From: Opitutales bacterium
Lineage (GTDB): Bacteria > Verrucomicrobiota > Verrucomicrobiia > Opitutales > JAJFLR01
Length of the DNA stretch: 35,401 bases
Reading direction: 5' to 3'
NCBI GenBank assembly: GCA_021772565.1
Contig: JAJFLR010000106.1
Coordinates: forward strand, 1-35,401
In this document: piece by piece, positions 8,379-19,592 of the stretch
Position numbering within the stretch: position 1 is the first letter of the stretch
How the letters are laid out: the number at the start of each line of letters is the position of its first letter
Notes under the pieces: model-generated
The model's input: the letters and a program-made list of their open reading frames with translations, nothing else
What the model was told of the DNA's origin: nothing
Database searches by the model: none
Translations under genes and position numbers: made by a program

Positions 8379-9248
8379 TTATGAGGATTGCCCTGCCGCT
8401 ATTTCTAATATCTCTTGAGTAATTGCAGCCTGTCGAGCTTTGTTATATTGCAGAGATAAATCATCCACTAAACTTTTTGCGTTATCTGTCGCTGTCTTCA
8501 TCGCTACCATCCTAGCACTGTGCTCTGATGCTTTTGCTTCCAGAATAGTATGATAAATTTCATTCTTCAAAAACAGATCCAGTAATGTATCAATGAAATT
8601 ACTCGCAGCAGGTTCAAACTGAATTTCTCTGGTATCGTGTGTAACAGATTTCAGATCATTCTCTTTCACATATTCATCAAATGCTTCTTTTAAATTTTTT
8701 AAAGGAAGCATCGGTCTAATTAGAGGTTCCTGCTTTAAAGTATTTTCAAAGTGAGAATAAATAATTTCAATCGTATCAATCTGCCCCTCTAAATATGCTT
8801 TAATCAAATACTCTATTGGCAATCGGGCTTCTGAAAATCTAACTTTATCACTCATAGAAAATTCTGCCAAAACCTCGCGGTCTGTTCGAGTTAGAAACTG
8901 CGTGCCTTTTCTGCCAATTGTTACAAATTTTGTTGGCGTTTTAATTTCAGTGATTTTCCTGAACAAATTGCCATTGAGTCCACCACAGAGCCCTTTATCA
9001 GTACTTATTAAAAGTACGCCACGATTTTCAACTTTGCGTTCAATTAAAAAGGGGTGTGTGATATCATCTAACTTACCGTCCAGTGAACTAATAATTTCAG
9101 CCATTAATTGCGCATAGGGACGACCAGCCAACGCACTGTTTTGTGCTCGCTTCATTTTAGAAGCAGCAACTAACTGCATTGCTTTAGTGATCTGGCCTGT
9201 ATTTTTTACAGACTTAATTCTTCGCCGTATGTCTCTGGTATTCGCCAT
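8379..9248 (-). CDS. atpG: ATP synthase F1 subunit gamma
   Basis: 289 residues. The conserved N-terminal helix (IRRRIKSVKNTGQITKAMQL) and C-terminal helix (NAKSLVDDLSLQYNKARQAA, ITQEILEI) form the rotor coiled coil; DKGLCGGLN lies in the central domain. Full length and apparently intact. It is separated from atpA by a 490-base gap, most of it occupied by an inverted-repeat-bounded element (9277-9728), so transcription into atpG, atpD and atpC must read through that element or start within it. Confidence 0.97.
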   Translation of the reverse strand: MANTRDIRRRIKSVKNTGQITKAMQLVAASKMKRAQNSALAGRPYAQLMAEIISSLDGKLDDITHPFLIERKVENRGVLLISTDKGLCGGLNGNLFRKITEIKTPTKFVTIGRKGTQFLTRTDREVLAEFSMSDKVRFSEARLPIEYLIKAYLEGQIDTIEIIYSHFENTLKQEPLIRPMLPLKNLKEAFDEYVKENDLKSVTHDTREIQFEPAASNFIDTLLDLFLKNEIYHTILEAKASEHSARMVAMKTATDNAKSLVDDLSLQYNKARQAAITQEILEIAAGQSS

Positions 9249-9276
9249 ATATTTTAACTTTTCACTCTAAATTTTA

Positions 9277-9728
9277 GCCACGGATTAAACACAGATTAAA
9301 CGCGGATTTTTTTCTTTTTCTGTTAAAATCATTCTTTTGTATTCAACCGTTTTACTCCCAAAATTTATTAATAGACCAATTTCATTATCTATTCCTTTCA
9401 ATTCATTTAACAGCTGAGCTTCATCTTTTTTTACGTAACTTTCATGAGCTTTAATTTCAACAATTATTTTTGCATCGACAAAGATATCTGCATAGTAATC
9501 TCCAACTATCACACCTTTATATTTTACTTTTAAATGTGGCTCTAAGACTGCAGTTAAATTACGATTTTGAATCTCTACTTGCATAGCCTTTTGATAAACC
9601 TTCTCAAGAAATCCATAACCAAGAATATTATAGACTTCAAAAGCCGATCCTATAATTTCTCTAGTTATCTCTTCGTATTTTAAATTCATAGTTAAAAATC
9701 CGTGTTCAATCTGTGTTTAATCCGTGGC
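9277..9728. mobile_element. 452-base element with 35-base terminal inverted repeats, inserted between atpA and atpG
   Basis: Left end 9277-9311 and right end 9694-9728 are inverted copies matching at 33 of 35 positions (outer sequence GCCACGGATTAAACACAGAT, inner CGGATTTTT). They enclose a single ORF, the GxxExxY protein, whose last codons and stop lie inside the left repeat. The right repeat lies just upstream of its ATG. I saw no convincing target-site duplication. Neither atp gene is damaged. The bounded structure and its position in an otherwise canonical operon support insertion; mobility itself is inference. Confidence 0.7.
9285..9689 (-). CDS. GxxExxY protein (PD-(D/E)xK nuclease-like)
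   Basis: 134 residues. The name-giving motif is G26-x-x-E29-x-x-Y32 in GYGFLEKVYQ. A nuclease-like core follows: GDYYADIFVDAKIIVEIKA with Asp68 and E78-x-K80, then Gln92 in a helix and the strand GLLINFGSKTVEYKR. The family is assigned to the PD-(D/E)xK superfamily; its biological role is not established. The C-terminal residues NPRLICV and the stop codon are encoded by the left terminal inverted repeat, tying the gene to the element. It has the same orientation as the atp genes, so it would be co-transcribed with them. It has no role in ATP synthesis that I can suggest. Confidence 0.88.
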   Translation of the reverse strand: MNLKYEEITREIIGSAFEVYNILGYGFLEKVYQKAMQVEIQNRNLTAVLEPHLKVKYKGVIVGDYYADIFVDAKIIVEIKAHESYVKKDEAQLLNELKGIDNEIGLLINFGSKTVEYKRMILTEKEKNPRLICV

Positions 9729-9737
9729 CAAATAAAA

Positions 9738-11273
9738 TTAGCAAATGAAAGATTTTTTCCAGTCTTCTATAGCAGTTTTTAATTCAGCGGTAATTTCGTC
9801 ATTCAATTTTTTCTCAGCCACAATTGTTTTCATCAAATCTTCTTTACGAGTCAGTAAGTACTCCTGCATGTTGTTACTTGCTTCGACAATTTTCTTGGTA
9901 TCAATATCATCAAACTGATTATTTTGCACCGCCCACAATAAACTGATTTGTATTTCTACAGGTCTAGGACTAAAGGCGGGTTGTTTGAAAATTTCTACGA
10001 TACGGGCGCCGCGTTCCAACAGTGCTTTTGTTCTGGCATCCAAATCAGATCCAAACTGTGCAAAAGCTGCCATCTCACGATACTGTGCTAACTCAAGTTT
10101 AACTTTTCCGGCCACCTGTTTATAAGCCTTTATCTGAGCTGCAGATCCCACACGAGATACAGACAATCCAACAGAAATCGCCGGCCTGATTCCCTGATTG
10201 AATAAATCAGTTTCCAAAAAGATCTGGCCGTCTGTGATAGAAATAACGTTTGTCGGAATGTAAGCAGAAACATCACCTGCCTGAGTTTCAATAATAGGCA
10301 GTGCAGTTAGTGAACCACCTCCATTTTTTTCATTCAGACGTGCAGAACGTTCAAGCAAACGAGAATGCAAATAAAAAACATCACCCGGGAAAGCTTCACG
10401 CCCTGATGGACGTTTTAGAACCAAAGAGATATGGCGATAAGCCACAGCATGTTTCGAAAGATCATCATAAACTATCAATGCATCCATGCCGTTATGCATA
10501 AACCACTCACCCATTGATGTACCGGCATAAGGTGCCAAAAATTGATTGGCCGGATTATCTGCAGCTGGTGCAGATACTACAATAGTATATTCCAAAGCAC
10601 CGTTTTTTTCCAGCACACCGATGGTTCGGGCAACGTTAGAATTTTTTTGCCCAATCGCTACATAGATTGAATAGAGAGGCCGAAATTCAGGATCGCCGCT
10701 TTCGAGGCCAACTTTATTAATTCTGGCCTGATTGATAATTGTATCTATAGCGATTGTTGTTTTGCCGGTTTGACGGTCACCAATAATAAGTTCTCTTTGG
10801 CCACGACCGACAGGTATCATCGCATCAATCGGCATGATACCGGTTTGTACCGGCTGACTAACAGATTTTCTTGGAATGATTCCGGGTGCAATTTTTTCAA
10901 TTGGATATGTCTCCTCTGACTTAATGTCGCCTTTTCCATCAATTGGATTTCCAATGGCATCAACAACACGCCCGAGTAATCCTTTGCCAACAGGCACAGA
11001 TAAAAGTTTACCTGTAGTGCTCACCTCATCACCTTGTTTCAATCTACTTGGATCACCTAAAATAACGCAGCCAACTTCATCTTCCTCTAAATTTAAAGCT
11101 ATCCCGTAAATTCCACCGGGGAATTGAACCATTTCATTATACATCACTTCTGACAATCCGTCGATCTTGGCAACACCATCCGCAAGGGTAACAATATTTC
11201 CGGTATTTTTCTTTACCGTTGAAGTTGATATATTTTCTATTTCTTTTTCTATTTGTTCAGTAATTGTGCTCAT
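9738..11273 (-). CDS. atpA: ATP synthase F1 subunit alpha
   Basis: 511 residues, full length. P-loop GDRQTGKT at 165-172 for the non-catalytic nucleotide site, and the [10 protein letters not shown] segment with the arginine that completes the catalytic site on beta. The N-terminal helix (about 1-20) that binds delta is present. Follows atpH by 22 bases. The 3' end lies 9 bases from the right end of the inserted element. Confidence 0.98.
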
Positions 11274-19433: not shown

Positions 19434-19459
19434 AAATCTGCGTTCAATCTGTGTTTCAT
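19434..19459 (+). repeat. solo partial copy of the GxxExxY-element terminal repeat
   Basis: AAATCTGCGTTCAATCTGTG followed by TTTCAT. It matches the right terminal repeat at 9697-9720 with three differences and an identical 15-base core GTTCAATCTGTGTTT. No partner end and no ORF are nearby. Likely a remnant of the same element family. Confidence 0.6.
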
Positions 19460-19519
19460 TGTTATGGAATACATGTCACTACGTTCGGAACTCATTTCAT
19501 TCGTTGAGGTGTCGCTTTG

Positions 19520-19592
19520 CTTATAGTAGTTCCAGCAAGAAAATATAATAATAATAATTAATATTATATTTTCTTGCTGGAACTACTATAAG
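19520..19592. repeat. 31-base perfect inverted repeat with AT-rich loop
   Basis: Arms 19520-19550 and 19562-19592 are exact complements over 31 bases (outer end CTTATAGTAGTTCCAGCAAG, inner part AAAATATAATA) with an 11-base A+T loop. It lies between the decayed transposase and the ATPase gene and directly abuts hairpin repeat copy B. Could be a MITE-like element or a very strong bidirectional hairpin. Confidence 0.9.

Follow-up and report, generated by a model that had tools for sequence, protein, structure and literature searches.

The window analysed here, the whole 35,401-nt stretch of contig JAJFLR010000106.1 from the Opitutales bacterium assembly GCA_021772565.1, carries a run of atp genes on its minus strand that is interrupted by a single foreign open reading frame (ORF). 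This ORF (9285..9689, minus strand) encodes a 134-aa protein of the GxxExxY family, a PD-(D/E)xK (Cas4/RecB-like) nuclease family, and lies between its downstream neighbour atpG (ATP synthase gamma; 8379..9248, minus strand) and its upstream neighbour atpA (ATP synthase alpha; 9738..11273, minus strand). It is bracketed by the two arms of an inverted repeat, each of 39 nt and three iterons, on the left at 9273..9311 (plus strand) and on the right, as the reverse complement, at 9694..9732 (minus strand), and the whole unit measures 460 bp. With an 11-bp pitch, the left-arm iterons are CACGGATT (9279-9286), CACAGATT (9290-9297) and CGCGGATT (9301-9308), and those of the right arm are CACGGATT (9726-9719), CACAGATT (9715-9708) and CACGGATT (9704-9697); the layout is CACGGATT-AAA-CACAGATT-AAA-CGCGGATT, with its mirror image on the opposite side. 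The end of the gene overlaps the left arm, such that the last codons and the stop codon (9285-9287) lie inside it. A sequence-only reading of the window had described 35-base inverted repeats matching at 33 positions around an ORF between atpA and atpG. Both the site and the repeat (9277-9311 / 9694-9728) are exactly as it claimed, and the repeat extends to 36 matches in 39 positions (92%) over 9273-9311 / 9694-9732. A chance origin of the arms is excluded, since their inverted-repeat score is 31.5 compared with at most 12 in 60 shuffles of the flanks, and only 0.01 chance matches to the two-iteron core are expected per 35 kb at up to three mismatches. A second, gene-free arm of the same type with two iterons is located at 19434..19458 (minus strand). 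After this arm, within 19434-19592, come a variant outer end (TTGTTAT...CGTTGAGGTGTCGCTTTGCT), which recurs elsewhere in the source genome, and a 36-nt near-perfect palindrome at 19520-19592.

The window ORF scores well above the cut-offs of two profiles, TIGR04256 (119 bits, cut-off 35) and PF13366 PDDEXK_3 (117 bits, cut-off 22), and these are its sole profile matches, in agreement with the earlier description of a PD-(D/E)xK-like protein that bears no transposase signature. In an alignment of 49 sequences including that of the window, residues E29, Y32, D68, E78, K80 and Q92 are invariant, and the clade of the window protein has QLLNE in place of the QxxxY motif of the family. The AlphaFold model of the protein (pLDDT 92) has its best structural match in the Cas4-type nuclease SSO0001 (4ic1; Foldseek E 1.4e-3; Z 9.6 over 105 residues), followed by restriction-endonuclease-like folds including RecB-like nuclease domains, MGME1 and the Holliday-junction resolvase Hjc. 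A search of solved structures by sequence gave weak matches only (E 0.2-0.4, T7 endonuclease I among them), and PADLOC and PHROGs gave no family for the protein. With Cas4/RecB nucleases the family shares the fold and the conserved D, ExK and Q; it differs in its size of 134 aa, in having no adjoining CRISPR context that could be seen, and in that its nuclease role is a predicted one. From the modelled fold, the activity may be directed at single-stranded or branched DNA. Comparison of three species at the same Flavobacterium site gave dN values of 0.04-0.09 against dS values of 1.3-3.4, which indicates that, at fixed sites, strong purifying selection acts on the gene and its function is conserved. 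Across several Flavobacterium species, elements with a GxxExxY gene occupy the same two intergenic sites (L112, L118, L124, L127 and L074, L081), with the protein conserved and the arms drifted.

Inverted arms are found around GxxExxY genes throughout the family. Most of the first 34 loci, taken from the order of the window, have an inverted repeat of tandem units in their flanks. A scan of the wider collection yielded 80 named loci, drawn from numerous groups of both bacteria and archaea; they lean to one protein clade (the G-type clade described below) as the scan used a narrower alignment, the diverse one being too varied. Among the 77 of these with enough flank, 60 have an inverted-repeat score above the 99th percentile of 341 shifted flanks drawn from the same loci, and scores above 15 occur in 48 of the 77 compared with one of the 341 controls. 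In the order and phylum of the window itself, 59 of 70 genes have inverted-repeat flanks above controls, and with these loci added a score above 12 is reached by 119 of 148. The expectation that GxxExxY genes generally lie within such ends is thus borne out, and repeats do surround other members of the family. Each arm comprises about three tandem iterons of 9-11 bp, the general unit being C-R-C-N-R-A-K, and has TT[A/C]ACC as its outer end, arm ends reading TT[A/C]ACC-CRC. In 69 elements, no inverted symmetry was found beyond ~6 bp outside the arm end and no exact junction was recognised, and the target duplications anticipated for a mobile unit were found in none (14 matching 5-mers compared with 11.7 in shuffled data). 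Reading frames of up to 599 aa around some members raised the possibility of an intein-like in-frame insertion, which was dropped as the gene at L179 is a separate one, in an intergenic gap after a fumarase-like gene.

The type of the arm follows the clade of the protein. Units ending in G (CACRGAG, CGCAAAG) occur at 84 loci, and units ending in T (CACRGAT, CACGAAT) occur at 12, the window included. Mapped onto the protein tree, the two types require one change, on a branch with a support of 97, compared with a mean of 11.5 changes for shuffled labels, none of 500 shuffles reaching the observed value. A label-free comparison of protein identity with arm k-mers also gave a correlation (Mantel r = 0.35, 0/5000 permutations). 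Within the source genome, two related GxxExxY proteins (66% identical) have a CACRGATT arm and two others have different arms. As the G-type clade spans bacteria and archaea, and arms differ within this one genome, the match is not explained by host lineage. In a rough check at the level of genomes, T-type arms made up 23 of 27 in G034 and 15 of 15 in G070, each with one T-type gene, compared with 4 of 31 in G019 (two G-type genes) and none of 28 in G131 (best gene G-type). We consider an association of the GxxExxY protein with recognition of its arms to be likely.

Arms are also dispersed without a gene. In the source genome, which has five gene-bearing copies, few and diverged, the outer decamer occurs 42 times compared with 2 for the reversed pattern. 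Six gene-free inverted pairs of 154-198 bp were identified there, and their interiors are unrelated to one another. They were accordingly rejected both as deletion derivatives with a common interior and as MITEs of a parental element; one gene relic was found, at C101. Across 145 genomes of the phylum, the strict three-iteron pattern was matched 1232 times, in 63 genomes, compared with once for its reversed control. Gene and arms occur together in 59 of the 145 genomes, the gene alone in 10, arms alone in 4 and neither in 72 (p=6e-25), a co-occurrence that is partly built in because the arms flanking genes are counted too. The association holds at the genus level (45/6/4/27 in the same order; p=6e-12) and is significant in every genome-size class. 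Arms exceed two per gene in ~30 genomes and often far outnumber the genes, with 48 arms and one gene in G111, 88 and two in G133, and 101 and six in G086. In genus g65, the gene is present in one of 11 genomes (G070) and arms occur only there (15 copies); likewise in genus g49, gene and arms are both confined to one genome of 15 (G096). Ten close gene-free arm pairs in G054 are all convergent, eight of them with a spacing of 8-19 bp; in one further pair, arranged alike, a GxxExxY gene lies between the arms. In viral contigs from IMG/VR (L350-L429), three-iteron G-type arms were detected in at least 120 stretches, the reversed pattern in none, and close pairs were convergent in 15 cases and divergent in none; no GxxExxY gene was found in 80 arm-bearing stretches of these contigs, which may include host DNA.

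Arms of genus g66 take the form of a 61-nt repeat comprising three iterons, a six-pair hairpin and CAGGACTGCCAG; G192, G066, G185 and G091 carry tens of copies of it. Among 20 copies of the hairpin, both sides have changed in four of the six pairs, with 19 double changes and 99.1% of cells paired; none of 500 shuffles reaches the observed value, and slid partners are only 24-54% paired. These compensatory changes suggest that folded single-stranded DNA or RNA is likely to be the recognised form in g66. They were seen in this genus only, the arms of the window bearing no such evidence. By eye, iterons within one g66 copy tend to co-vary, being CAGAT, CGGAT or CCGAT throughout.

The presence of elements differs between close relatives. 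A 616-bp element of G091, between genes judged by eye to encode an ABC-transporter-type ATPase and an alanine-racemase-like protein, is present in G192 and has left a decayed arm in G074. The congeners G122 and G107 lack it entirely; in both, no more than ~20 bp separate the flanks, and the empty sites contain no arm. In G066, the orthologous site (L227, ~267-425) is occupied by an inverted repeat of 158 bp whose iterons are of a different type (AGAGAACAGAGAACGGAAAACAG). Three genomes differ at a further g66 site: a repeat of the GxxExxY type lies there in G091, an insert judged by eye to be S23-like in G122 and a third repeat type in G194. The flanks of gene-free arms in this genus are a mosaic of several repeat types in which only presence or absence is readable. 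In the order of the window, none of 29 relatives has a GxxExxY gene between atpA and atpG, the gap measuring ~8-150 bp in 27 of them, so that the gene is not a fixture of this gap; as these relatives are remote (53-64% identity in AtpG), the comparison documents absence and not an exact empty site. Among plasmid records, GxxExxY genes were found in 8 of 72,556, and among phage records in 0 of 50,697.

The arrangement is not unique to GxxExxY, as genes of an unrelated family show the same architecture. In G012 (L245, ~2376-2826) and G037 (L265, ~990-1504), the atpA-atpG gap contains an S23-type four-helix-bundle gene (TIGR02436) bounded by inverted arrays of short iterons. At TIGR02436 loci more widely (L297-L326), 19 of 30 flanks have inverted repeats scoring above 12 compared with 1 of 104 shifted controls, mostly built of 7-bp units. 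S23 genes have been described in intervening sequences of 23S rRNA that are selfish and end in inverted repeats (PMC4990558). These sequences resemble the window element in being ~430 bp long with a small ORF between inverted terminal repeats, and in having been called selfish (PMC4990558), but they encode a four-helix bundle, lie in rRNA and are excised by RNase III, whereas the window element occupies the space between two genes of an operon. Assignment of the latter to the 23S rRNA intervening sequences was thus rejected: its ORF is of the PD-(D/E)xK type, it is located in the atp operon, and the window has no Rfam match. The S23 genes found here outside rRNA have their iteron architecture in common with the GxxExxY elements. 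That two unrelated proteins share one architecture and the same sites is the main caution on any reading of these elements. Since the S23 family has the same architecture, the nuclease may not be the maker of the arms, which may stem from a host process exploited by both families.

The proposal from sequence alone was that of a minimal mobile unit. Its strictest form, an autonomous transposon in which GxxExxY is the transposase, the arms are its terminal inverted repeats and the gene-bearing unit jumps, would account for the repeats that bracket the gene, the presence and absence of elements between congeners, the patchy spread over phyla and the existence of decayed copies. It is nevertheless unlikely, and as a minimal transposon the unit is not borne out: target duplications are lacking in all 69 elements, the copies within one genome are few and diverged (five in the source genome), the gene is nearly absent from plasmids and phages, the gene-free elements have no shared interior, and Flavobacterium species retain elements at the same sites at dS >1, with purifying selection on the gene at these fixed sites. 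The absence of duplications and of a shared interior, together with this strong selection, argues against a classical insertion sequence in general. Insertion sequences and MITEs share with the present elements the inverted repeats around a gene and the gene-free derivatives with the same ends, but a transposase match, target duplications and a common gene-free interior are all lacking here. Supported parts of the proposal are the family-wide ends, strongly so, the lack of a GxxExxY gene in the atpA-atpG gap of relatives and the absence of a comparable element from congeners. The part that multiplies is the gene-free arm and not the gene.

It has also to be considered that the repeats came before the gene. 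If the nuclease cut existing iteron repeats and the gene were copied into them by recombinational repair, in the manner of homing, the repeats would be its targets; the abundance of arms in gene-bearing genomes, the match of arm type to protein clade and the recurrence of different elements at the same intergenic sites would all be expected. However, to cut at tens of sites in each genome would carry a high cost, no arm is present at the empty sites of G122 and G107, and homing splits one site whereas here the gene lies between a pair of inverted arms, such that we regard this explanation as very doubtful. Alternatively, the arms could be repeats made and used by the host in a structural, regulatory or mRNA-level role, originating by replication slippage or template switching and not through the encoded protein, with GxxExxY and S23 as passengers or autoregulated genes. 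The S23 genes with the same architecture (7-bp iterons) and the same sites speak for this possibility, as do the three iterons of one g66 arm that vary in concert, as slippage would give. Against it, arm type goes with the GxxExxY clade in different phyla, elements of one genome differ in it, and the presence of arms tracks that of the gene within genera; the combination of host repeats with an origin by slippage consequently appears rather improbable.

The reading that we consider the probable one is that the 460-bp unit belongs to a widespread system of REP-like elements whose enzyme is an unrelated PD-(D/E)xK nuclease. In REP/RAYT systems, dispersed repeats are tied to an enzyme whose gene is near-domesticated (PMC2817692, PMC8266576), and convergent doublets of the repeats are the forms called REPINs (PMC3116915). 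Since what multiplies here is the gene-free arm, this logic fits better than that of an insertion sequence. Both systems have a small gene between two inverted repeats with further repeats elsewhere as singles and inverted doublets, and both have unrelated inter-repeat segments, co-evolution of protein and repeat, and a chromosomal location (PMC2817692, PMC3116915, PMC8266576). Compensatory palindrome changes are a further likeness, here in g66 only. The differences lie in the enzyme, which is a Y1 HUH transposase (IS200/IS605-like) in RAYTs and a PD-(D/E)xK nuclease here, and in the repeat, which here has three tandem iterons starting from TT[A/C]ACC, a hairpin in some lineages only and no GTAG-type head. 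Classification of the window gene as a RAYT was rejected for the same reasons, as it has neither an HUH transposase nor a GTAG head. In a REP-like system of this kind, a Cas4/RecB-type nuclease would be encoded between inverted arms, with gene-free single arms and convergent doublets dispersed in the same genomes. The protein would bind its own iterons as a multimer and act on the arms when these are folded or single-stranded, as on the lagging strand, and this action would help to spread the arms at low frequency. The gene itself would move rarely and, like RAYT genes, persist as a near-domesticated copy. Both movement and nuclease action are deduced here, and we judge the proposed mechanism of dissemination to be about as likely as not.

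Although GxxExxY is annotated as a family, very little has been published on it, and the papers found to name it concern other matters; nor was any description of CACAGAG-, CGCAAAG- or CACGGAT-type repeats found in a search covering mostly open-access papers. If correct, a REP-like system would give the family a function and a substrate, and would explain very common intergenic tandem repeats of these three types in many phyla. It would also add an independent second example in which a chromosomal enzyme and a population of repeats are linked, so that the spread of REP-like repeats, a question of long standing, becomes testable with an unrelated nuclease, and it would be categorically new if the nuclease does spread its arms. 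More tentatively, Cas4-like PD-(D/E)xK nucleases that recognise inverted tandem-iteron arms in bacteria and archaea might represent a third route of short-repeat spread beside DDE and HUH enzymes and, together with S23, an entire class of one-gene elements with iteron boundaries that could make up much intergenic repeat DNA.

In several arms of the source genome (L009 at 1014, L010 at 995, L022 at 1080 and L015 at 1013), among them the left arm next to the other GxxExxY gene of the window type, ~44 bp (TACCGAGC...GAGAATAACA) separate GCCAC from the second iteron.
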